IMG/VR virus record: IMGVR_UViG_3300031963_010962
Span: 1 to 21,378 of that record
Source: a virus
Length of the DNA stretch: 21,378 nucleotides
Direction: 5' to 3' (one strand)
The notes under the pieces were generated by a model, which saw nothing but the letters and a program-made list of their open reading frames with translations, was not told the DNA's origin and made no database searches. Below, piece by piece: positions 1,455 through 14,444 of this stretch. The translations under genes and the position numbers were made by a program. The stretch's first letter is position 1. Every line of letters begins with the position of its first letter.

Positions 1455-3881
1455 TTATTGTTCGGGAAGTGGTGGTTGTTCCTCTGCGGGCATTTCTTCG
1501 GGAGCCACTTGTTCCCCCGCACCCTGCTGCATTTGTTGTTGAGCTGCGGCTTGGGCTGCCTGCATTTGAGCTGCGATTAATTGTTTTTGCTCGTCTGTTG
1601 ATACTACGGCTGCAAGACCTACATTTTCCATAACAGCATCAATAAGTGGTTTGATTTCTGCGGGAATAGGAAGTCCTGTTTCCATAGATTTTAAATAAGC
1701 GGCAGTGGCCATCTGTAGTACGGCGGTTCTATTCTGGGCCTCGGCGGTCATTTGAGCGCGCTTGATGTCCATCATGCCTTCTTGTTCCTTTGTTGCGCGC
1801 TTTTCTTGTTCGGCTACTTGGGCTGCTTGTATTTGCCCTTGAATCGTCATCTCTTGATTCTGTGCCGCTGTTGTTTGATTGTATATAATCATTTTCTTTT
1901 GCGCCCTTCTAAATAATGCTTCCGCTAGCTTCACATCTTCTTTAGCTACACGCATTAATTGGAAAGGATCTACAAATAGTACAAGGTCGGGGGAAGATGC
2001 GAGAGCCTGTTGGAGCATAGCGTCAAATCTCGAAAGCTCGTATTGGTCAGGAAGCATCTGTATTCTTGAATTGAATATTCTTCCAGCCACATCATCCGCC
2101 TTTACAATATCTCTATATACGCTTGAACCGTACTGAACTGAAGTCTTTAAAAGGGAAGCCACCTTTTTGGCGGTATCAGCCATACAATTAGTATATGCCC
2201 AATAAAAATAATCGGTAGCGTTCTGGGCAACTTGCTCTGCTGTATTGATATTAGATACCGCAACACGGGGCTGAAGAGCGCTTGAAATCAAGTTCGGATC
2301 TTCCCCTAACTCATCTTTTAATATCTGATAGTGCTTATCGTAAAGAAGTATTAAGCCCTGAAGCTGGGACAAAAAGCCAGAATTTGCAAGTTCTGTAATC
2401 GGTACAGGTACATTATTCCCTTCGGCGTCACGTCCACGATAATAAATGTCTCCCGTTTGATCGTAGAGTTTTTTAACGTCAATTGCTTTGTTTCCATCTC
2501 CGAGACCATAGTCTATGTTTTGAAGAGCGTCCCAATTTACGGCAGCTCCCGTTGGGCGCATCTTGGCAACAAGTTGTTGCATCTTTAGACGCGCAATAAT
2601 CATTTGGTCTACGGGTTCCTGTATTTTTTCTGGTATGGCGAGGGAAGTCATGTCGTAGTTCTGCACCATATAGAATGTGTACGAGAACTCAGCATTACCA
2701 ATTTCTTTTGGATCTTGAGGGCGAATCATATTCCTTTTAATGCCCCACTCAAGCATTGTATTTGTAGGGCGACAGAATACGCCGCGGTATATATTCCATT
2801 TAGTGTCAGCAATAACTTTTTCGTTTTCTGACGGCTTTTCTGGGCGACCTTTCTTTACAATAGTTGATTTGTTCTTTTTTGTTGTAACAACTGTGTAGTC
2901 GTCACTATCAACCGTTTTAAGCTCAAACTCAATTACGTCAATATTCCATTCGTCATAAGGACGAAGGAAGGTTACATTCCATTCGGTAAGCCAAGTAATA
3001 TTATCGTAAAGTTGAAACTCCTTTGAAAACTGAGCCATCTTCCAAATTTCCTCTTCGCTTATCTTTCCCCCAAACTCAGTTCCATATTTTCTGCGAAGTT
3101 CACTTATCTTATAAGTACGAATTACTCCACGCCAAGTTGTGTCGCGGAAGTCGGGATAGCTTGAATAAGAGTAAAAACAGTTTTCAGGCTTTAGCCAATC
3201 AACGTGAATTACACCTTGATCATCCATCCAAGTATAAGTTCCAACAAAGCCACACTCGGCGCTGTCGTGAAGCATTTTTTCTTTTAACGTATCAAACCAG
3301 CCATTAGAAGCAAGCACATCGTTGCAACCAAGTTCATACTGAATCTCTTCGGGCAGTCTTTGAAATTGAGATTGCCAAAGTTTTAACTCTTCTTTATCTT
3401 CTGGTATTTGTTCTGCTTCTGGCAAAATTTGCACACCAGACTCTTGTTGTAATCTCTCAAGTAGCTTTCTATTTTCAATAATAAACTCAAGATTTTCGTA
3501 CTCTTCCTTCTTTTGTTTAGTTGAAATAGAATCAATTGCTGTTACCTTAATCTTTTCGCTTCTAGACATCCATCTTCCTACAAGACCAGATATAACGCGA
3601 TTAACAATGTTGATTGATTGCCAATTGATATTAAGATAATTAACTTTTCCATTGAACTCAAGCAAGTCTTGGAATTTACTCATTGGTACGCGACCATTTG
3701 CATAACCGCGATTTGTTCTCCAACGAGCATTTCTAACCCAAAAATAACTTGATATACCACCACGAATAGTGGAGTCAATATATTGTGCTAATCGTTTACC
3801 GTAGTTCCAATCGGACTTTTCCTTGATAGTTAATTTATCAAGCTGAAAAGTTTTAAGGGGTTGCGCGGAATAATCCTGCAT
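1455..3881 (-). CDS. Portal protein, 808 aa
   Basis: This is a large protein of the size of P22-type or crAss-like portals (about 700-850 aa). The portal forms the dodecameric ring at the capsid vertex through which DNA is packaged. The N-terminal third (around residues 35-110, with VRNARWRTNRGYANG) and the central region rich in aromatic and charged residues are typical. The C-terminus (about 660-808) is long, helical and rich in Gln and Ala, with AAQAAAQQQMQQ, followed by an acidic Pro-rich tail (EEMPAEEQPPLPEQ). Long helical C-terminal barrels occur in P22-like portals. It lies directly downstream of the large terminase, the classic packaging order. The assignment rests on size, composition and synteny. 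Confidence 0.85.
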   Translation of the reverse strand: MQDYSAQPLKTFQLDKLTIKEKSDWNYGKRLAQYIDSTIRGGISSYFWVRNARWRTNRGYANGRVPMSKFQDLLEFNGKVNYLNINWQSINIVNRVISGLVGRWMSRSEKIKVTAIDSISTKQKKEEYENLEFIIENRKLLERLQQESGVQILPEAEQIPEDKEELKLWQSQFQRLPEEIQYELGCNDVLASNGWFDTLKEKMLHDSAECGFVGTYTWMDDQGVIHVDWLKPENCFYSYSSYPDFRDTTWRGVIRTYKISELRRKYGTEFGGKISEEEIWKMAQFSKEFQLYDNITWLTEWNVTFLRPYDEWNIDVIEFELKTVDSDDYTVVTTKKNKSTIVKKGRPEKPSENEKVIADTKWNIYRGVFCRPTNTMLEWGIKRNMIRPQDPKEIGNAEFSYTFYMVQNYDMTSLAIPEKIQEPVDQMIIARLKMQQLVAKMRPTGAAVNWDALQNIDYGLGDGNKAIDVKKLYDQTGDIYYRGRDAEGNNVPVPITELANSGFLSQLQGLILLYDKHYQILKDELGEDPNLISSALQPRVAVSNINTAEQVAQNATDYFYWAYTNCMADTAKKVASLLKTSVQYGSSVYRDIVKADDVAGRIFNSRIQMLPDQYELSRFDAMLQQALASSPDLVLFVDPFQLMRVAKEDVKLAEALFRRAQKKMIIYNQTTAAQNQEMTIQGQIQAAQVAEQEKRATKEQEGMMDIKRAQMTAEAQNRTAVLQMATAAYLKSMETGLPIPAEIKPLIDAVMENVGLAAVVSTDEQKQLIAAQMQAAQAAAQQQMQQGAGEQVAPEEMPAEEQPPLPEQ

Positions 3882-3937: not shown

Positions 3938-6010
3938 TTATATCGCCGCCCCGTTAGGGTATATTTTTACTAGGGGTGTTTGGGGAAGTGGCGGCTTGTA
4001 AATTGGCTCCAGCCCCGCAACAAGGGCAATCATTGCGCTTACCGTTCTGTCGCTTGGGGTACGCTTGGATGGCTCAAAGTTCTTAAGATCTTCCAAAAGC
4101 TCCAACCAATATATCTTTTCGCAATAGTGTTCAACGTAACTAATCATTGAATCGTTTTGCTTGGTCATAGCAAAATCTGTTACAGGAAATCCGTAATGCC
4201 TTTCTACATTATCCTTCTTCCTCTTGCTTGGATCTATTGCGTTTAAAGGGAACTTAGCAAGATAACCCAGCTTGCCCCTATTCTTAAAGTAGGTGTAATA
4301 GTCGTCTGCAACAAATTCGTAATAAACTTGATATCCGAGATACTCGGCAGCAAGTATGATTTGATTATGAAGCTCTTCCTTTTCGTTTGGTCGCCCGTAA
4401 AGGTGGCCAGTAAACAGTCCCGTATTCAGGGGATCTCTTAAATCGTATTTAGAATAAACCCAAGCAGAAGCTTTAGATCCGTATCTTTTACCGCCTTGCG
4501 AGTTTGAGTATCCATCCACCCCAATAACGCCGATATCTATTCTTCCCGGTCTCTTTGTGCCATTATCGTAATAGTGCTTATTTACCTCACCCTTTAGGTT
4601 TAGGTCGCTAACAAACTCCCAAGCAAAGGTCTCCGTGTCCCTCGCATCCCTCCATCTTATTGATTGATTAATCTCATCTCTGTAAAATATAATCTTTCTT
4701 TTGGGTACTGGACTCTCTTTTAGTCTTTCTATCTGCTCGTTTAGTTTAACTACATTAAATATACAGTCAGCATTTGCCGACATAAAAGCCTCAACCTCGT
4801 TGCAGGGATTCATACGAATCTCTTCCTCAAGGTCGTCCCCGGTTCTTCCTTCGCGTCTCTTTAATATATAAGCCTTTGCCCCTAACTCTATATCCTCTTC
4901 ACTAATCTCACTTATTGTAACCCCGTTTTCGTCTGTTACAACCCATTTGTCAACTAGGTATTTCTTTTGTTCTGGTGTCGGGGAATTGATGACAGAGAAT
5001 CCGTATTGATCTATAAAACCCTCGTATCCGTCAAAGGATGGACTAAAATACCTTACAAGTCTGTTAATTGTGGGGGTTCTTTTGTCTACGTCAGCATTTT
5101 CCCAAAGCAACTTGAACTCAGAACCCCCTTTAGACATTTTATTAACCGTAGAAGGCATTTCAACAAAACCGACTCTTTTAACACCCTTTACAAGCGTCTT
5201 TGAGATAATCGCAAAAAGCTGTGAAGCTTGAATCTCTTTTTCTAGTTTACCAAACTCATCCAAGAGTAGTCGGCTCATACGACCACGGTCATAAGCGTTT
5301 AGTACAGGCGCGCGGTAGTTAATCTTAGACCTATTACCCTCGTCTTCTTTTTGGGCATCAGCAAATCCTTCTTTTACATTTGAAGCCTTCTGAGCAAACA
5401 CAAGCTCTGTAACGCTATCCTCCCTGTTTATCTGCTTGGGCTTTAGAAAGGCGGGTAATTGCCTATACCCATAGGCAACCATCTCCGTAAAGGTTGCGCG
5501 CCCATCCTCGTTAGACTTAGATACAAGACCGCAGTTAGAGTTCTTGTAAAATATTGCCTCGTAGACAAGATTTGATGTTGCTTGGGAAGACGCACCCTCG
5601 CGGCGCTTTTTGGAACGGATAACCCCTAAAGCCCACGGCACATTTTCCCAATGCTCCAAAAATGTAAAATAACGCCTATCGCAATCTCTGTATTCCGGCC
5701 TTGAGCCATCCTCTAGCGTCCACCATTGAAGATAGAAATAGTATTTTTTGGGTATGTAAAAAGAGCTTCCATTTATGTAAGCCCAAATACCCTTCTTGCA
5801 TTTTTCAAGTTCTGTTATTGCGTAATCCTCTTGTTCTTCTGTAAGTATTAGGTCACCAGACTTCGTGTATTCAACCTTTTCAAAAAATGAGGGCAGTTCT
5901 TCCCTAGCCCACATCTGCTCATCCTTTGGTTTATCCCAATTAAGGATTTTTTCGTGCGGGGGAACATCTGGTAGCTTACATTTTGTCCCGTATATTAATT
6001 CAAAGTTCAT
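3938..6010 (-). CDS. terL: Terminase large subunit, 690 aa
   Basis: This is the packaging motor ATPase and nuclease that pumps DNA into the prohead and cuts it. A degenerate Walker A-like segment, SKKRREGASS, lies at about residues 133-142. The Walker B segment MSRLLLDE ends in D251 and E252. The C-terminal RNase H-like nuclease domain probably starts near IDIGVIGVDGY (491-501, candidate metal-binding D499), with an acidic cluster EFVADDYY at about 565-572 as the second site. Length fits large terminases of Bacteroidota phages. The start codon overlaps the stop of the upstream 43-residue gene (TAATG), and the portal follows. The Walker A lacks a standard GKS/T, which is common in phage terminases. 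Confidence 0.9.
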   Translation of the reverse strand: MNFELIYGTKCKLPDVPPHEKILNWDKPKDEQMWAREELPSFFEKVEYTKSGDLILTEEQEDYAITELEKCKKGIWAYINGSSFYIPKKYYFYLQWWTLEDGSRPEYRDCDRRYFTFLEHWENVPWALGVIRSKKRREGASSQATSNLVYEAIFYKNSNCGLVSKSNEDGRATFTEMVAYGYRQLPAFLKPKQINREDSVTELVFAQKASNVKEGFADAQKEDEGNRSKINYRAPVLNAYDRGRMSRLLLDEFGKLEKEIQASQLFAIISKTLVKGVKRVGFVEMPSTVNKMSKGGSEFKLLWENADVDKRTPTINRLVRYFSPSFDGYEGFIDQYGFSVINSPTPEQKKYLVDKWVVTDENGVTISEISEEDIELGAKAYILKRREGRTGDDLEEEIRMNPCNEVEAFMSANADCIFNVVKLNEQIERLKESPVPKRKIIFYRDEINQSIRWRDARDTETFAWEFVSDLNLKGEVNKHYYDNGTKRPGRIDIGVIGVDGYSNSQGGKRYGSKASAWVYSKYDLRDPLNTGLFTGHLYGRPNEKEELHNQIILAAEYLGYQVYYEFVADDYYTYFKNRGKLGYLAKFPLNAIDPSKRKKDNVERHYGFPVTDFAMTKQNDSMISYVEHYCEKIYWLELLEDLKNFEPSKRTPSDRTVSAMIALVAGLEPIYKPPLPQTPLVKIYPNGAAI

Positions 6011-7802: not shown

Positions 7803-8324
7803 TTAACATTTTTTTGCCACCAAATAAAAAGAGTACCTATCCTCCCCCACATCAAGACCGTCCTCAATAATTTCAAAATAAGGCAGAAAATAGGGGTGTC
7901 CTGTAAAGTTTAGGGCTTCCCCACAAAAGGTGCGGCGAAACCAAAACATAAAGTCCGCGTGCTTAGTGTCGTGGAAATGCTCCCTGTTTTCATAGTTGTT
8001 GTAATAGTTGCCATCTGGAAGATACAGAATAAAATAGCCTCCAGACTTTAAAAGCTTTGACCATTCTAATATTGCCCTAAAAGAATCGGGTAGATGCTCT
8101 AATACGTGGGAGCTAAAACAACAATCAAACTTTTCTACTAATTCTGGGAATTGGGTATCAAGGCCATACAAACTACTTGTTAATTTTTGGACGTGGGGGA
8201 ACTGACGGCCATCAATCCCGACCGCTTGCGGGCAAACAAGATCATCCCCGCAACCAATATCCACAACCTCCCCAACCAAATACTTTTCAATTTTGTGCTT
8301 AATTTTTGAAGCTTCTGAAGGCAT
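7803..8324 (-). CDS. SAM-dependent methyltransferase (class I), 173 aa
   Basis: Motif I is VVDIGCGDD (residues 20-28), which binds S-adenosylmethionine. SSHVLEHLPD (71-80) and the strand LLKSGGYFILYLPD (91-104) are typical of the Methyltransf_11 type, often used on small molecules, sugars or proteins. There is no DPPY-type DNA methylase motif. The gene sits one base after the DUF5672-GT9 glycosyltransferase and in the same operon, so a sugar or glycan is the likeliest substrate. Length is short for the family but all core motifs are present. Confidence 0.85.
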   Translation of the reverse strand: MPSEASKIKHKIEKYLVGEVVDIGCGDDLVCPQAVGIDGRQFPHVQKLTSSLYGLDTQFPELVEKFDCCFSSHVLEHLPDSFRAILEWSKLLKSGGYFILYLPDGNYYNNYENREHFHDTKHADFMFWFRRTFCGEALNFTGHPYFLPYFEIIEDGLDVGEDRYSFYLVAKKC

Positions 8325-8325
8325 A

Positions 8326-9771
8326 TTATTTTATTAATTTTTGTACCGAATCTATGGCTTCCAAAACTTTAGCTGTAGAGTATACAGCGCAAGGAGGCAT
8401 TGTTTCGTTGATATAACAAGGCTCACTTTCAACACCTATTTGTTCATGCCAGCAATAGGGTTTGTTACATATTGGGCTACTACTAACGTGATTCGTTAGT
8501 ACCACCTTATTAGATAGCTCTGCGTGTACTATTTCTGGATTGGTATTGCCGAAAAAAAGAATAGACGGAACATTAAATGCTGACGCTACGTGGCTTACTC
8601 CACTATCTATTCCAATAAAGAAGTCAGCACTTCCCACCGCCCAGCACAAAAAGTTCTCGTTCATTGTGTTTAGGTAAATAGCATTTTTAATTAACGGCAC
8701 ATTTCTTTTTCCAACTTGGAATACCGTATATCCTCTTGCTTGAATATTAGCCACAACGCTTTCCCAGTCAACTCCAAATATATTTCTTCCTGATTGTTTT
8801 ATCCCCTCAAGGTGTATTACGCAATATTTTGGAGATAACTTGGTTGCTTCATTTATTTCAAATCCTACGTGCAATTTGGGGTTTCTCATCTCCCCGTCTT
8901 TAATCCCGCAGTATTGATAATAAGTAAGTAATCTATTTTGTTTTGGGAAAGACTCATAGGCCATATCTAAATTATAAAACTCGGCTGTGGCTAAAAGGCT
9001 TTTATTTATTGTTTTGGGATGCTGTACGGGGAAGTAATGGTTTACAAACAGCATATAGAATTGCTCAAGCGTATCAAGCACTACTCGGTATCCCTTTTTA
9101 TAAAAATAATGCAAGATGGGTTCAACAAGTATTACATCACCCATTGATGCTTGTCTTTTTATCACTACCGTTTTTTGATACGGCTTATGGAATCTGCCGT
9201 GAAAACCGAAGGTGTCGTAAATTGGCGGACGAAGCTCATAGGCAAACTTATCGGCGGTTTCTTCATCAGCAAACTTGAAACCGTATCCATTTTCTAAATA
9301 GTATCGGTATAATCTAGCAATAATTTCATCTTCGGGAGATGTTATTTCTATATTCTTATCTGTCGCAATAATGGTTTGTAGCCTAAACGATCTTAAGGAA
9401 AACCCTCCGTTCCCTACATTACGGCCATCTGTATAAAGCCAAGGCGCGCCAATGTAATCGTAATTATAAAAATCATCACTCCACGAATTACCGTTTAGAA
9501 CATAGCCGTCGTGCTGAATTACAAGACAAAACTCCGTATTTATATATTTATAAAGCTCCTTTACAACAAAACGAGAGTATTCTTCTTTGGATTTTATAGG
9601 TAATATTTTTATTACCTGTATTTTATACCCCAAGTCCATATCCCGGTCTGTCAAAAACTTAACAGAAGCAAAGTCGCATTGCTCCATACTTTTTTGTATA
9701 GCAACAAGCGCTTCGCCGTGACGAGAGCAATCAATACAAATTAATGTTACTCTACTTAGCTTTGTTCGCAC
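8326..9771 (-). CDS. Two-domain glycosyltransferase: DUF5672 fused to GT9 (heptosyltransferase-like), 481 aa
   Basis: Residues 6-195 match a DUF5672-type domain: QHDGY (86-90), DYIGAPW (105-111), VGNGGFSLRS (119-128) and FGFHG (188-192). Residues 200-481 match glycosyltransferase family 9 (ADP-heptose:LPS heptosyltransferase type), with RQASMGDVILVEPIL (206-220) and the donor-binding pattern IDSGVSHVASAFNVPSILFFG (388-408). The start is GTG at 9771, overlapping the upstream small gene by 20 bases; internal Met codons lie inside the first domain. Two transferase domains in one chain suggest two successive sugar additions. The heptose genes on the right arm could supply the donor. Confidence 0.85.
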   Translation of the reverse strand: MRTKLSRVTLICIDCSRHGEALVAIQKSMEQCDFASVKFLTDRDMDLGYKIQVIKILPIKSKEEYSRFVVKELYKYINTEFCLVIQHDGYVLNGNSWSDDFYNYDYIGAPWLYTDGRNVGNGGFSLRSFRLQTIIATDKNIEITSPEDEIIARLYRYYLENGYGFKFADEETADKFAYELRPPIYDTFGFHGRFHKPYQKTVVIKRQASMGDVILVEPILHYFYKKGYRVVLDTLEQFYMLFVNHYFPVQHPKTINKSLLATAEFYNLDMAYESFPKQNRLLTYYQYCGIKDGEMRNPKLHVGFEINEATKLSPKYCVIHLEGIKQSGRNIFGVDWESVVANIQARGYTVFQVGKRNVPLIKNAIYLNTMNENFLCWAVGSADFFIGIDSGVSHVASAFNVPSILFFGNTNPEIVHAELSNKVVLTNHVSSSPICNKPYCWHEQIGVESEPCYINETMPPCAVYSTAKVLEAIDSVQKLIK

Positions 9772-9877: not shown

Positions 9878-10095
9878 TGTTTCCAGTTTATTGGTATTTC
9901 AATATCAAATCCACTTCCGTACATTGGGTTGCCGTACACCCGAATATCTTCAGATAGGTAGTGCAATACTACTCCACCCTTAAGCCTAACAAGCCAAACT
10001 GTATTAACGTCAATTCCGTAGTCTATAAGCAAAAGGGCGTCACCTTCTCCGTGAGGCGTGTGTACGGGAATTGGTGTTTTAAATTCGTGTATCAT
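9874..10095 (-). CDS. Hypothetical small beta-rich protein, 73 aa
   Basis: It begins MIHEFKTPIPVHTPHGEGDA and contains VWLVRLKGGVVLHYLSEDIR. The pattern of short strands (IPVHTPHGEGDALLLIDY) resembles an SH3-like or small beta barrel of the kind seen in phage accessory proteins. No family is recognised. It overlaps both neighbours by four bases (ATGA), consistent with tight operon translation between the two glycosyltransferase genes, and may be an accessory factor to them. Confidence 0.7.
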   Translation of the reverse strand: MIHEFKTPIPVHTPHGEGDALLLIDYGIDVNTVWLVRLKGGVVLHYLSEDIRVYGNPMYGSGFDIEIPINWKQ

Positions 10096-10883
10096 TTTGC
10101 CAACTTATTAAAATAATAATCAAGACTTCCTTGATGATAAAAATCATAACCACCATTACCTATCGGTATTACATTTGGCATCATTGGGAACAGCTCTAAG
10201 ATACGATTAACTTTCATCGCCTCTGCAAGCTGAAAGCAAAAGCTTTGGTTGCCCAAAAAGAATTTACAACCCTTAATCCAAGCCGCTAGCTGGTAAAAAT
10301 CATCAACCTCAAGCCTTGGGATGTCTAAGTCCCAAGTTCTGCAAAAAAGATCCCTTTCGTTTTCAAGCCCAGCAAACACAATCCTGTCTTGGTGTTCCTT
10401 TAAAAAAAAGTAGTTAATAAGATGATTTCTGTAGCGCTGGGTAAAGTTTATAATAATCTTGTCATTCTTCTTTGCCTTGACATTTAAATAAGGTTGGGAA
10501 AGGTCAGAGGCCATCTGGGGAAAAACATAATTAAACCATCTGTTAAGACTTCCTCTTGGTTGATTCGTGTATCTTTCTTGCCTAATTAAATCAAAGTCAA
10601 TATCCACGACTTCCCCCGCGTACTTACAAAAATCTTCTATGTATGGCTGGGAAGTTATGAGTCTTTTTAAATTATCAAACATATAGTCCGACATACATAT
10701 CGGCTCATCAAATTCATTTTTAAACGGGTGTATACTCCCATCGTATCCAGCCCCCGGCATACCTATTCTTTGGTACACTATCGTTTTCCTGCCCGTATCT
10801 TCCCACATCTTCTTAAGTCCTGCCATAAAACTAATCAGGTCTCCAGAAGGCGAAGATGTTTTACACTTTAAAGGATTTTGCAT
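10092..10883 (-). CDS. Putative GT-B glycosyltransferase, 263 aa
   Basis: The N-terminal segment SPSGDLISFMAGLKKMW (11-27) resembles the GDxI-type loop of GT-B enzymes. The middle strand KIIINFTQRYRN (142-153) and the C-terminal FFLGNQSFCFQLAEAMK (208-224) match the sugar-nucleotide-binding half of heptosyltransferase-like enzymes. It lacks the full GT9 signature and is shorter than usual (300-350 aa). It is the first gene of the leftward operon. Together with the fusion glycosyltransferase and methyltransferase it suggests decoration of a glycan or virion surface. Confidence 0.7.
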   Translation of the reverse strand: MQNPLKCKTSSPSGDLISFMAGLKKMWEDTGRKTIVYQRIGMPGAGYDGSIHPFKNEFDEPICMSDYMFDNLKRLITSQPYIEDFCKYAGEVVDIDFDLIRQERYTNQPRGSLNRWFNYVFPQMASDLSQPYLNVKAKKNDKIIINFTQRYRNHLINYFFLKEHQDRIVFAGLENERDLFCRTWDLDIPRLEVDDFYQLAAWIKGCKFFLGNQSFCFQLAEAMKVNRILELFPMMPNVIPIGNGGYDFYHQGSLDYYFNKLAK

Positions 10884-10917
10884 AATTTTGTTATGATATT
10901 TCGCAAGCGTTTGCGAA
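10883..10917 (+). promoter_or_regulatory. Possible promoter and 5' stem-loop of the 86-residue gene
   Basis: TAATTTTG at 10883-10890 matches the Bacteroidota -7 element, though no good TTG lies upstream at the expected distance. Transcription would start near 10896. A perfect inverted repeat follows at once: TTCGCAA (10900-10906), loop GCGT, TTGCGAA (10911-10917). The repeat could be a 5' mRNA stabilising hairpin or an operator shared with the divergent glycosyltransferase operon. The element overlaps the start codon of the minus-strand gene. Confidence 0.45.
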
Positions 10918-10947
10918 GAGTTTTCTTCACGGCTTAAATTGTAAACA

Positions 10948-11208
10948 ATGCCAACTAATCTTTTCTTGGTGCAAGTCTATGGTATAGACGCACCCGGTGG
11001 AGCGACTGAAATTGCTGCGGCTGGTGGACAAGCTAACTTGTTCGGCAACCAAGGTATTCACGTTTATCCAACAACTCAGACAAGAGGTGTAGCTCAAGTA
11101 CAATGTAACGCTGTTGTTGAAGTTTTTCCACAGGGATTGAATCAAATCTCTACGAAGTACTTTACCGACAGAACTGTTGCTCAAGTACAGTCTTTGGCTA
11201 ACGCCTAA
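10948..11208 (+). CDS. Hypothetical protein in a single-gene transcription unit, 86 aa
   Basis: The protein begins MPTNLFLVQVYGIDAPGG and contains the Ala/Gly-rich stretch ATEIAAAGGQANLFGNQG. It is predicted mostly beta with a helical end (TVAQVQSLANA). No family is recognised. It is isolated from neighbours, with its own upstream hairpin and a downstream intrinsic terminator. It uses codons such as GCT, GGT, GTT, ACT and TTC more than nearby genes, as in highly expressed genes. It could be an abundant virion protein such as a decoration protein, but that is inference. Confidence 0.75.
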   Translation: MPTNLFLVQVYGIDAPGGATEIAAAGGQANLFGNQGIHVYPTTQTRGVAQVQCNAVVEVFPQGLNQISTKYFTDRTVAQVQSLANA

Positions 11209-11231
11209 TAGGTTTACCCTATTTATAAAAG

Positions 11232-11257
11232 TCCGGCCCATTATGGTCGGATTTTTT
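11232..11257. terminator. Intrinsic terminator after the 86-residue gene, possibly bidirectional
   Basis: TCCGGCC (11232-11238) pairs with GGTCGGA (11245-11251), including one G-T wobble, across a six-base loop, followed by six T. On the other strand the stem is followed by CTTTTATAAA, so it may also stop the convergent regulator operon that ends at 11259. Confidence 0.85.
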
Positions 11258-11258
11258 A

Positions 11259-11414
11259 TTATAGGGATTGATTAAGCGCTGCAAGCTCTTCTTGCTTTGC
11301 CTGTAACTTTTGCGCAACCTGTTCTTTTAGAAACTTTAAAACCGCAACCTGTTCGGCAACGTCTCCTTTATTAAGCTCTTTTACAAGCTTATCTACGTTA
11401 ATTTTCTCTTTCAT
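11259..11414 (-). CDS. Small helical protein cotranscribed with the LuxR-like regulator, 51 aa
   Basis: I chose the ATG at 11414 because it overlaps the stop of the upstream regulator (TAATG); the frame is open further upstream but there overlaps the regulator. The protein is almost entirely helical and coiled-coil-like (MKEKINVDKLVKELNKGDVA, then FLKEQVAQKLQAKQEELAAL). No family is recognised. Its coupling to a DNA-binding protein suggests a partner or antagonist of it. Confidence 0.65.
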   Translation of the reverse strand: MKEKINVDKLVKELNKGDVAEQVAVLKFLKEQVAQKLQAKQEELAALNQSL

Positions 11415-11635
11415 TAGTCTATGTATTTGTTTGTGATAAAATAAGATACGAGCTGCGTGGTGTTCTTGCAATTAAACTTTGCCCTAAGTAACTGTAGCTT
11501 GTAGGCGAATGTGTTTTTGTTAAGTCCTAGTTTTTCGGCCACACCCTTGGCTTTTTCGCCCGTTGCAAGAAGTCTAACCCATTTTACTTCCTCTTCGCTT
11601 GGCGAAGGGGGAGTGTATGTTTCTGCGTTTTCCAT
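11414..11635 (-). CDS. LuxR/GerE-type helix-turn-helix regulator, 73 aa
   Basis: The start at 11635 (MENAETYTPPSPSEEEVKW) is preferred over an upstream Met because the promoter -7 element lies between them. The HTH is seen in SEEEVKWVRLLATGEKAKGV followed by AEKLGLNKNTFAYKLQLLRA, then KFNCKNTTQLVSYFI, the classic four-helix LuxR C-terminal pattern with Lys/Asn/Thr in the recognition helix. No receiver or sensor domain is present, so it is a stand-alone DNA-binding domain, probably controlling the divergent promoters next to it. Its mRNA may be leaderless. Confidence 0.8.
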   Translation of the reverse strand: MENAETYTPPSPSEEEVKWVRLLATGEKAKGVAEKLGLNKNTFAYKLQLLRAKFNCKNTTQLVSYFITNKYID

Positions 11636-12321: not shown

Positions 12322-12501
12322 ATGGAAACGAAAAAAAAGGGACGTAAGCCATTAAAGGAAGGAGATAAAGTAACGCTTGTGTCTGTTTATTTAAAAAAAG
12401 AAGATAAAGAAGCTGTTGTTGCTAAGTACGGATCTGTAACCAATGCAATAAAAGAAGAAGTCTTGCCAAGACTTGATCTCCCTAAAAACGCAAATATATG
12501 A
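12322..12501 (+). CDS. Ribbon-helix-helix-like small protein, 59 aa
   Basis: The ATG at 12322 is chosen over an upstream in-frame start because the family-like sequence begins METKKKGRKPLKEGDKVTLV. A strand (VTLVSVYLKK) followed by two helices (EDKEAVVAKYG, then VTNAIKEEVLPRL) fits the ribbon-helix-helix fold of Arc/CopG-type DNA-binding proteins. It may autoregulate the operon. Its stop overlaps the start of the nucleotidyltransferase gene (ATGA). Confidence 0.65.
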   Translation: METKKKGRKPLKEGDKVTLVSVYLKKEDKEAVVAKYGSVTNAIKEEVLPRLDLPKNANI

Positions 12502-12899
12502 TACGCAAAAAAACGGTTTGGGTTAATGGATGCTTTGATATACTGCATCCGGGACACTTTGAACTTCTTCGTTATGCAGCAACCCTTGGTAACTTGCACG
12601 TAGGCATAGATTCTGACGAAAGAGTAAGAAAAGCAAAAGGCCCCGGCAGACCAATACACGATGAAGGGTTTAGGGCTGATATGCTTTCCGCTTTTTCTTT
12701 TATTAAAAAGGTTTACATCTTTGAAACCGACTGGGATTTACGATCAATTACAAAAAAATTAAAACCCGACTTTTTGGTTATTGGTGATGAGTATAAAGAC
12801 AGAACCATAATTGGAGCAGAAAACGCAAAGAGAATTGTGTTTTTCCCAAAATCATTACACTCTACTACAGAAGTAATAAACAAAATTAAATATGGATAA
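12498..12899 (+). CDS. Heptose-1-phosphate nucleotidyltransferase-like (HldE C-domain/HldC type), 133 aa
   Basis: The HxGH motif is HPGH (17-20) inside GCFDILHPGHFELL. The region VGIDSDERVRKAKGPGRPI (35-53) and STTEVI (122-127) match the cytidylyltransferase superfamily, especially the adenylyltransferase half of bacterial HldE (RfaE domain II). It would join ATP (or CTP) to a sugar phosphate to form a nucleotide sugar. Glycerol-3-phosphate cytidylyltransferase is a close alternative. The neighbouring RfaE-type kinase makes heptose the preferred substrate. Confidence 0.8.
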   Translation: MIRKKTVWVNGCFDILHPGHFELLRYAATLGNLHVGIDSDERVRKAKGPGRPIHDEGFRADMLSAFSFIKKVYIFETDWDLRSITKKLKPDFLVIGDEYKDRTIIGAENAKRIVFFPKSLHSTTEVINKIKYG

Positions 12900-13257
12900 A
12901 AAGCCGATTTGTACCGATTGTTGCCAAGTCCCTAAGGGTTGGGGTGGCGAGATTGTTATAGTAAACAATGATCTTTATTGCGGCAAGATTCTTGTCTTTA
13001 ATAGCGGTTGCCAGTTTAGTATGCACTACCACTTAATTAAGCAAGAAACTTGGTATGTAGTTAAGGGGGAGTTTTTATTTTCTTGGATTGATACAGAAAC
13101 GGGTGACAAGCACATACAAACCTTGTACGAACAAGACGTTGTTACAATTCCTATTGGTATGCCTCATCAACTAAAGGCGCTTCGTGACGGAGAAATATTT
13201 GAGATATCTACACAACATTTTGATTCCGATAGTTACAGAGTATGGAAAGGAGATTAA
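12892..13257 (+). CDS. Cupin-fold protein, 121 aa
   Basis: The first cupin motif is MHYHLIKQETWYVVKG (44-59), with H45, H47 and E52 as metal ligands, and the second is IPIGMPHQL (87-94) with H92. This complete set suggests a metal-binding single-domain cupin like those at the end of mannose-6-phosphate isomerases or in nucleotide-sugar clusters. Context between a nucleotidyltransferase and a sugar kinase suggests a role in sugar isomerisation or epimerisation, not shown by sequence. It overlaps its neighbours. Confidence 0.8.
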   Translation: MDKKPICTDCCQVPKGWGGEIVIVNNDLYCGKILVFNSGCQFSMHYHLIKQETWYVVKGEFLFSWIDTETGDKHIQTLYEQDVVTIPIGMPHQLKALRDGEIFEISTQHFDSDSYRVWKGD

Positions 13258-13445
13258 AATTAAAAGCTAAAGACCTTAGTGTTAGAGACCATATAGCTAT
13301 ACAGGTCTTACCAATTCTTTTAGCAACAGCGACAGATCAAGATTCTCCTGATGAGGTTTGTGATGAAGCTATAAGGATTGCTGACATACTTGAAAAAAAG
13401 TTAAATAGTGAATATATACGTAGACATAGACGGAACGATTTGTGA
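13242..13445 (+). CDS. Hypothetical small protein, 67 aa
   Basis: It starts 16 bases before the end of the cupin gene. The sequence LKLKAKDLSVRDHIAIQVLP, then PDEVCDEAIRIADILEKKL, is helical. Short proteins of this pattern occur widely in Bacteroidota phages as far as I recall, without known function. The 3' end overlaps the start of the HAD gene by 38 bases, an unusually long overlap that supports a compact operon but also lowers confidence in its exact end use. Confidence 0.65.
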   Translation: MERRLKLKAKDLSVRDHIAIQVLPILLATATDQDSPDEVCDEAIRIADILEKKLNSEYIRRHRRNDL

Positions 13446-13698
13446 TAGTGTTGGGGGAAGATATGATGAAGCGTCGCCAATCCCCCAGCACATAGACAAA
13501 ATAAACGCTCTTTATGAAGAGGGAAATAGAATTACTTATTATACGGCAAGAGGACAGAACTCTGGAAAAGATTATTCTGATTTAACATATAACCAACTTA
13601 TAGGATGGGGTTGTAAATTTCACGACTTAATAATGAACCATAAACCAGCATACGACCTAATGATATGCGATAAAACCAAGAGGATTGAAGAGTTATGA
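13408..13698 (+). CDS. Short HAD-superfamily phosphatase, 96 aa
   Basis: The start is GTG at 13408; no ATG is suitable since the catalytic motif DIDGTIC (residues 6-12, nucleophile D6, second Asp D8) comes immediately. Motif II is YYTARG (Thr46 region). The C-terminus has DLMICDKTK. It lacks a cap domain and is much shorter than GmhB (about 190 aa). In the heptose pathway a HAD phosphatase (GmhB) removes the 7-phosphate from heptose-1,7-bisphosphate. Its position between kinase and nucleotidyltransferase makes it a candidate for that step, though short phage HADs can have other substrates. Confidence 0.75.
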   Translation: MNIYVDIDGTICDSVGGRYDEASPIPQHIDKINALYEEGNRITYYTARGQNSGKDYSDLTYNQLIGWGCKFHDLIMNHKPAYDLMICDKTKRIEEL

Positions 13699-14444
13699 AC
13701 TTTTTAGTTATAGGGGAAAAATGTAGAGATGTTTTTGTGTATGGGGAAGTCACAAGGCTTAGCCCAGAAGCACCCGTTCCTATATTTAAACCAAACCGAA
13801 TTACAGAAAATGGCGGTATGGCGCAAAATGTTTACAATAATCTTTTTTCATTAATAGAAAAAAAGTCAAGCATCATAGGTCATTTTTGCCACGAAGAAAT
13901 AAGGAAGACAAGATATGTTGATGATAAATCAAATCATTATTTCATACGAATTGACGAAAACGATACATCACGACCAATAGAGTTTACTTCTCATTTTAAA
14001 AAAATTATATACGGCGCCGATTGTATTATAATTTCAGATTATGATAAAGGTTATTTATCGCTAAACGATATTTATCAAATTTGCCAAGAAAAAAGAGATG
14101 GCGCTATTGTTTTTTTAGATACTAAGAAAAAGCTTACCCCTGTAATATTTGATCAGATTGATTTTGTTAAATTCAATGAGTCGGAGTACGAAAAAAATAA
14201 AATGTTCGCAGAAGGGTATCTTGATAAAATTATTATTACAAAGGGTGGTAATGGAGCTACTCACAACAACCAAGACTTCCCCAGCACAAAAAAAGTAACC
14301 ATAGATGTAAGTGGTGCAGGAGATACATTCTTAGCCGTATTAGCCTATTATTATATGCAAAGAAGGTCAATAAACTTTGCTATAGAAAAAGCTAATGAAG
14401 CGGCCTCAAAAGTGGTGTCAGAAAGAGGGGTTTCTGTTATCTAA
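13695..14444 (+). CDS. PfkB-family kinase like HldA/RfaE domain I (heptose-7-phosphate kinase), 249 aa
   Basis: RLSPEAPVPIF (21-31) is the signature of RfaE-type D-glycero-beta-D-manno-heptose-7-phosphate kinases. GGMAQNVYNNL (40-50) corresponds to the usual GGAANVAxNL and DVSGAGDTF (204-212) is the PfkB active-site motif with the catalytic Asp. ITKGGNGA (181-188) fits the nucleotide-binding region. Bacterial HldA domains are about 310-330 aa; about 30 residues after NNL are missing here, so the enzyme is compact. It would make heptose-1,7-bisphosphate from heptose-7-phosphate. Its start overlaps the HAD stop (ATGA). Confidence 0.85.
   Translation: MNFLVIGEKCRDVFVYGEVTRLSPEAPVPIFKPNRITENGGMAQNVYNNLFSLIEKKSSIIGHFCHEEIRKTRYVDDKSNHYFIRIDENDTSRPIEFTSHFKKIIYGADCIIISDYDKGYLSLNDIYQICQEKRDGAIVFLDTKKKLTPVIFDQIDFVKFNESEYEKNKMFAEGYLDKIIITKGGNGATHNNQDFPSTKKVTIDVSGAGDTFLAVLAYYYMQRRSINFAIEKANEAASKVVSERGVSVI

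Follow-up and report, generated by a model that had tools for sequence, protein, structure and literature searches.

The general chemistry of the heptose enzymes HldA, HldC, and GmhB, and of cupin isomerases, forms the background to the locus described here. A review of the bacterial adenosine diphosphate (ADP)-heptose pathway sets out the order of its steps (PMC5387315), and Sullivan and colleagues report the co-occurrence of T4-GCs 304, 305, 307, and 308 in cyanophages P-SSM2, S-SM2, and S-SSM7 as "LPS (lipopolysaccharide) genes" of unknown function (PMC3037559). Iyer and colleagues name PfkB kinases, HIGH-type nucleotidyltransferases, and cupin "sugar isomerases" in such clusters (PMC7824862). 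This cassette type, already seen in cyanophages, now appears in a phage from another host group: the window analyzed, which is the entire virus record IMGVR_UViG_3300031963_010962 (21,378 bases), contains an operon in which a nucleotidyltransferase (NT), a short kinase, a short HAD phosphatase, and a cupin are encoded close together, as in the P-SSM2-type cassette. Whether this operon constitutes a viral cassette for nucleotide-sugar synthesis, related to the ADP-heptose pathway of bacteria and with four phage-encoded steps leading from sedoheptulose-7-phosphate to a nucleoside diphosphate (NDP)-heptose, we regard as an even call. What is new is the proposal that the cupin does the job of GmhA, which would make the cassette a complete rather than a partial route. 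The operon consists of the following open reading frames (ORFs):

12322–12501, + strand: 59-amino-acid ORF directly 5′ of the NT gene, overlapping its start by 4 bases; no Pfam or PHROG match
12498–12899, + strand: HldC/RfaE-domain-II-type NT, 133 amino acids (TIGR02199, phrog_7878)
12892–13257, + strand: cupin, 121 amino acids (phrog_7851); proposed ketose-phosphate isomerase in the place of GmhA
13242–13445, + strand: 67-amino-acid ORF between cupin and HAD, also found in the close relatives of the window
13408–13698, + strand: short HAD phosphatase, 96 amino acids, GTG start; EcbF/BcbF type through its relatives
13695–14444, + strand: shortened HldA-type PfkB kinase, 249 amino acids, with the stretch RLSPEAPVPIF (TIGR02198, rfaE_dom_I)

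Neighboring genes in this order overlap by 4 to 38 bases, and the PHROGs listed for the four named genes are phrog_7878, 7851, 1238, and 8133. The block from NT through cupin, ORF, and HAD to kinase is retained in the window and in all six close relatives, and the ratio of nonsynonymous to synonymous substitution rates (dN/dS) is 0.01–0.18 for the cassette in pairs with unsaturated dS. The cassette is thus real, conserved, and under purifying selection; chance adjacency of its genes is ruled out by block conservation, kept order, co-occurrence, and dN/dS.

A swap of isomerases between loci, fusions and genome-level exclusion in archaea, and alignment with cupin ketol-isomerases over the metal-ligand positions together suggest that the cupin fills the place of GmhA. 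For loci in which kinase and NT lie no more than 6 kb apart, a short-kinase sample (n = 68) was compared with a long-kinase sample (n = 49), both drawn from the same scan (best 80 of 499), the latter being rich in Mucilaginibacter and Pedobacter. Short-kinase loci contained a cupin in 57 of 68 cases and GmhA in 9 of 68; long-kinase loci contained GmhA in 27 of 49 and a cupin in 3 of 49. Thinning the sample left cupin in 54/65 and GmhA in 9/65 short-kinase loci, against 2/42 and 22/42, respectively, for long-kinase loci. Within the set of 21 short-kinase "genome" loci, five (L028, L031, L033, L035, L036) are filed as archaea or bacteria, show cyanophage-like gene order or clustering with virus kinases, and are probably mis-binned phage DNA; without them, the thinned short-kinase loci retained cupin in 49/60 and GmhA in 8/60.

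In the 55 sampled viral loci where kinase and NT are at most 6 kb apart, the cupin was present in 50, the HAD in 45, both in 42, and GmhA in 4. Where the flank of a sampled viral locus reached 8 kb or more (60 loci), NT and cupin were both present in 33, NT only in 4, cupin only in 2, and neither in 21 (Fisher 3.3e-10 for the association, uncorrected for relatedness). Of 50 virus records that bear the cassette, 3 encode a GmhA-type SIS_2 protein, and none of the eight full-length cyanophage records among the 50 does. SIS_2 was likewise absent from all six close relatives of the window, records that may be fragments, and a general scan of window proteins, which included no GmhA profile search aimed at the whole window, returned no GmhA match. 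The first-pass annotation of this DNA had reported that neither GmhA nor HldD is seen, and had concluded that host precursors or genes outside the window would be needed. The absence of an epimerase agrees with the lack of any PF01370 match in the window, and that of GmhA holds to the extent of the scans just described; the conclusion drawn from it need not follow, because the cupin occupies GmhA's place and the isomerase may not be missing.

One of the three long-kinase loci with a cupin, assigned to Woesearchaeota, encodes in a single ORF an HldA-type kinase of full length (329 bits; cut-off 345) joined to a cupin of the cassette family, and in the next ORF an HldC-type NT (164.9 bits; cut-off 181.5) fused to GmhB (169.8 bits; cut-off 178); its genome gave no SIS_2 match. 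A search of 279 genomes in this archaeal phylum with the fusion protein gave matches in 70 (E ≤ 1e-20), of which 66 have a usable kinase, G178 and G255 (cupin match only) and G211 and G315 (partial kinase) being left out. GmhA was found in 2 of 19 genomes with a cupin versus 35 of 47 without (Fisher 3.1e-6), or 2/21 versus 35/49 for all 70 (p = 2.9e-6), in genomes of unknown completeness, 12 of the 66 having neither isomerase. Kinase–cupin fusions exist in six genomes of the phylum (one cut at a contig end) and kinase–GmhA fusions in four; in the kinase tree, the cupin-fused kinase of G369 and the GmhA-fused kinase of G159 are neighbors (SH-aLRT 89).

Across 42 viral and genome cupins, residues H45, H47, E52, H92, and E104 are invariant, and we infer the first four to be metal ligands. 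The predicted structure (predicted local distance difference test, pLDDT, 94.9) is a cupin fold with two histidines, a glutamate, and a histidine at the ligand positions of cupin ketol-isomerases. Columns shared with lyxose isomerases (YC-x-K, H-x-H, K-x-ET, E-x-S) include several that are invariant in the 42 cupins. Sequence and modeled fold are thus compatible with a ketol-isomerase, a fit rather than a proof. In cyanophage records (L008–L015), the family phrog_7851/T4-GC 307 is publicly named "cysteine dioxygenase," yet it is the cassette cupin.

The kinase and NT are closest to the heptose families. The NT matches rfaE_dom_II (TIGR02199) at E 1.2e-27 (96.5 bits; curated cut-off 181.5), followed by a glycerol-3-phosphate cytidylyltransferase model at 41.9 bits, and it matches phrog_7878 at E 2.8e-30; TIGR02199 is matched by 20 of 20 aligned NTs at E ≤ 0.001 and gives the best E-values of any model. 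The kinase matches rfaE_dom_I (TIGR02198) at E 1.5e-35 (122.8 bits; curated cut-off 345) and a ribokinase model at 41.4 bits, and 13 of 13 aligned kinases match the HldA model at E ≤ 0.001, again with the best E-values. Its predicted structure (pLDDT 95.4) has Burkholderia cenocepacia HldA as best fold match (Z 25.5, root mean square deviation 2.3, 240 residues, 26% identity), with ribokinase at Z 23.7. In an alignment with Escherichia coli HldE and RbsK, the kinase retains the HldA stretches RxSPEAPVP, K-x-R..R-x-D, SDYxKG, and DVxGAGDT, of which RxSPEAPVP and SDYxKG are absent from ribokinase; RxSPEAPVP, SDYxKG, and GAGD are near or fully invariant among the aligned short kinases. Compared with HldA, two stretches are missing from it: some 26 residues that follow the first long helix, and a further short segment. 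In a tree without a resolved root, the short kinases (75 in all) group on a single branch (94/96), separate from the long HldA rows. Recent capture of a host hldA by this phage is unsupported, because the window's kinase lineage (support 100/100) falls inside a clade of 19 exclusively viral rows and HldA sequences from Bacteroidota lie elsewhere in the tree.

The phosphatase belongs to another family than GmhB. Nineteen of 20 aligned HAD members match the EcbF/BcbF model TIGR01689 at E ≤ 0.01 (the window protein itself at E 0.04), the family profile matches the EcbF/BcbF structure PDB 9iqw at E 2.4e-22, and the alignment contains the motifs DIDGT, TARG, K79, and D88. No GmhB model appears among the matches of the window HAD or its 20 aligned members, and its identification as GmhB is ruled out by profile. 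HldC-type NTs fused to a short HAD occur in two viruses (L166, ORF 10687–11457; L237, ORF 1273–2040), parallel to the archaeal NT–GmhB fusion. Public records name phrog_1238/T4-GC 306 "phosphoheptose isomerase," yet the protein is a HAD phosphatase with the DxDGT motif (cyanophage records L008–L015).

These results bear on the earlier reading of the operon as the three steps from heptose-7-phosphate to nucleotide-heptose. The gene set it described, a kinase with RLSPEAPVPIF, a short HAD, an HldC-type NT, and a cupin, is present on the + strand at the positions it gave. The HldA and HldC models proved to be the best families for kinase and NT, both matches lying under the curated cut-offs, and the order kinase, phosphatase, NT fits the chemistry it proposed; its assignment of the HAD to GmhB fails.

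We infer the reactions, sugar, nucleotide, and acceptor of the route as follows. The substrate of the cupin would be sedoheptulose-7-phosphate from the host, or a comparable ketose phosphate, which the enzyme would isomerize to an aldose phosphate; the short HldA-type kinase would phosphorylate this at C1; the short EcbF/BcbF-type HAD would take off the other phosphate; and the HldC-type NT would add a nucleotide to the product. Such a route would use neither GmhA nor HldD, and, with no epimerase, its product would stay in the D,D form. Of the 50 virus records with the cassette, 41 contain an SDR epimerase; none was found in the six close relatives of the window, all of which are fragments. 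A phage glycosyltransferase would then transfer the activated sugar to an acceptor on the virion or cell surface, and one candidate lies in the window beside a second gene of potential relevance:

8326–9771, − strand: DUF5672 + GT9 protein (PF18922, E 2.4e-20; PF01075, E 3.1e-8; over cut-off); possible user of the activated sugar
7803–8324, − strand: methyltransferase adjoining the GT9 gene (PF08241, E 2.2e-8); possible sugar decoration

DUF5672 and GT9 are thus combined in one protein, whose gene lies beside a methyltransferase gene and the late genes. The GT9 domain, which we take to be the heptosyltransferase family, scores 33.7 bits against a gathering cut-off of 22 over a C-terminal stretch only; the protein matches a heptosyltransferase in PDB at E 0.018, and its gene is retained in 6/6 close relatives. 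Heptosyl transfer by this protein is plausible in the window's lineage, because its profile weakly matches ORFs near hldA in 18 long-kinase loci out of 59, every one from Pedobacter or Mucilaginibacter, and because E. coli WaaC, searched among window ORFs, matches its C-terminal part at E 1.3e-5. The idea that surface change acts against infection by other phages is cited in PMC2984593.

That the cupin is a new, nonhomologous sedoheptulose-7-phosphate isomerase replacing GmhA in viruses and some archaea, so that the phage route is complete with four enzymes and independent of host heptose genes, is a reading that we hold tentatively and place somewhat below an even chance. Several results weigh against the route proposed above. 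Both kinase and NT fall short of the curated heptose-family cut-offs. In fold comparisons the cupin scores highest with CapF (Z 16.1), ahead of phosphomannose isomerase (15.1), Pac13 (15.1), and D-lyxose isomerase (15.0; 26% identity), and other cupins also outscore the D-lyxose isomerases by sequence: profile matches begin with cupins 2vqa and 3d82, followed by D-lyxose isomerases 2y0o (E 1.6e-4) and 7nzo (2.6e-4) and, lower, L-ribose isomerase. Five short-kinase loci hold both cupin and GmhA. For the archaeal exclusion, a relatedness-aware test over supported branches (seven pairs, of which on average 0 varied in the same direction, 4.3 varied oppositely, and 2.7 showed no difference) is consistent in direction and non-significant (median p = 0.125), and a looser GmhA rule, which admits long SIS frames that are possibly GlmS-like, weakens the exclusion to 6/19 versus 35/47 (p = 0.0019). 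The cupin has other settings too, since a kinase lies nearby in only 33 of 80 cupin-anchored viral loci (22 of the 39 whose flank is 9 kb or longer); GmhA occurs in 0/80. Finally, the lineage's GT9/DUF5672 model found no match in 80 virus and 9 cyanophage-group loci, so a general kinase–GT9 link is not claimed, and among viruses this link was seen in the window's lineage only.

Some of these points would fit a heptose-1-phosphate branch fed by host GmhA, with the cupin acting later as an epimerase or tailoring enzyme on the nucleotide sugar. The cupin domain of CapF presumably epimerizes a uridine diphosphate (UDP)-sugar, and a later role would also suit the loci with both isomerase candidates and the 17 of 39 well-flanked cupin loci without a nearby kinase. 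A direct fusion of the cupin to the kinase, which acts before nucleotide transfer, is difficult to reconcile with that role, as is the exchange of cupin and GmhA in fusions and genomes; furthermore, the double locus L141 contains an extra HddA-like kinase, so its GmhA may serve that enzyme. We consider this account unlikely. Only a little less doubtful is the use of the same enzyme logic for a different sugar (pentose, hexose, octose, or branched), with precursors such as those from transketolase-like and zinc alcohol dehydrogenase genes. In many relatives, including some cyanophages and Patescibacteria-type genomes, zinc alcohol dehydrogenase and transketolase/E1-like genes adjoin the kinase, and these may feed a ketose phosphate into the pathway or indicate another sugar; the sub-threshold kinase and NT scores and a HAD that is not GmhB point the same way. 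Yet HldA and HldC are the nearest characterized families, and the archaeal kinase–cupin fusion adjoins an NT–GmhB fusion. It is very improbable that the cassette consists of nonfunctional passenger genes or packaging filler: "stuffer DNA" is raised for cyanophage LPS clusters in PMC3037559, and the HAD gene of one close relative (L004, 7714–8001) is frameshifted, in genome or assembly, but the low dN/dS, invariant catalytic-type residues, and conserved gene order are at odds with this idea.

If the cupin does replace GmhA, an apparently broken pathway becomes complete, a function can be named for the viral cupin family phrog_7851 and the misnamed HAD family phrog_1238, and many viruses would be able to produce an activated heptose-like sugar where the host lacks the classical pathway.

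Such cassettes had been called rare in phages, a description refuted by their occurrence in cyanophages (PMC3037559, PMC7824862) and by IMG/VR, where a kinase relative is encoded in at least 582 stretches out of 600 candidates (lengths not all checked). A collection of phage genomes with 50,697 records includes 34 with kinase relatives, 27 of them cyanophages by name, and 37 with NT relatives. Outside viruses, Patescibacteria-type genomes (L016, L018–L022, L027, L029, L030, L032) carry a short kinase with zinc alcohol dehydrogenase and transketolase/E1-like genes, mostly with no cupin or short HAD nearby. In L141, L144, L148, L171, and L036, a second set stands beside the cassette (HddA-like GHMP kinase, GmhA-like SIS, HAD–NT fusion, and SDR; families tested on L141), possibly two nucleotide-sugar routes side by side. 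A literature search on cupins with GmhA or heptose, and on sedoheptulose isomerase, found no relevant paper, most subscription journals being outside the search.

The cassette operon sits between a late block on the − strand (portal, large terminase, then the methyltransferase and DUF5672 + GT9 genes) and early genes on the + strand (primase–helicase, exonuclease). The structural and packaging genes of the late block are as follows:

1455–3881, − strand: portal
3938–6010, − strand: large terminase

The phage host is likely among Bacteroidota, because the closest relatives of the window terminase (86 of 88 records in the same phage collection, below 60% identity) come mostly from phages of Flavobacterium, Cellulophaga, Tenacibaculum, and Maribacter. 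No RNA families were found in the window, promoter and terminator scans gave signals near background, and the protein at 10092–10883 has no Pfam, PHROG, or clear PDB match.

Compared with the bacterial ADP-heptose pathway (GmhA, HldE/HldA, GmhB, HldC, HldD), the window has HldA- and HldC-type enzymes and a phosphatase step in common; it differs in having a cupin for GmhA, an EcbF/BcbF-type HAD for GmhB, no HldD-type match, and a kinase about 60 residues shorter. With the D-lyxose/D-mannose cupin isomerases (PDB 2y0o, 7nzo), the cupin shares fold and motif positions, but at only 23–26% identity and with other cupins matching equally or better. The HAD belongs, through its relatives, to the same sequence family as the EcbF/BcbF capsule biosynthesis phosphatases (PDB 9iqw), but is only 96 amino acids long, with its own match to TIGR01689 as given above. 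The closest system is the cyanophage cassette of T4-GC 304–308 (P-SSM2, S-SM2, S-SSM7, S-CAM1, and others), in which the same NT, short kinase, short HAD, and cupin families are clustered under the same PHROG names. That cassette also includes a short SDR epimerase, carbamoyltransferases, or transketolase-like genes; the window's lineage, by comparison, has no SDR match, adds the 67-amino-acid ORF and the GT9/DUF5672 gene, and belongs to a different host group.

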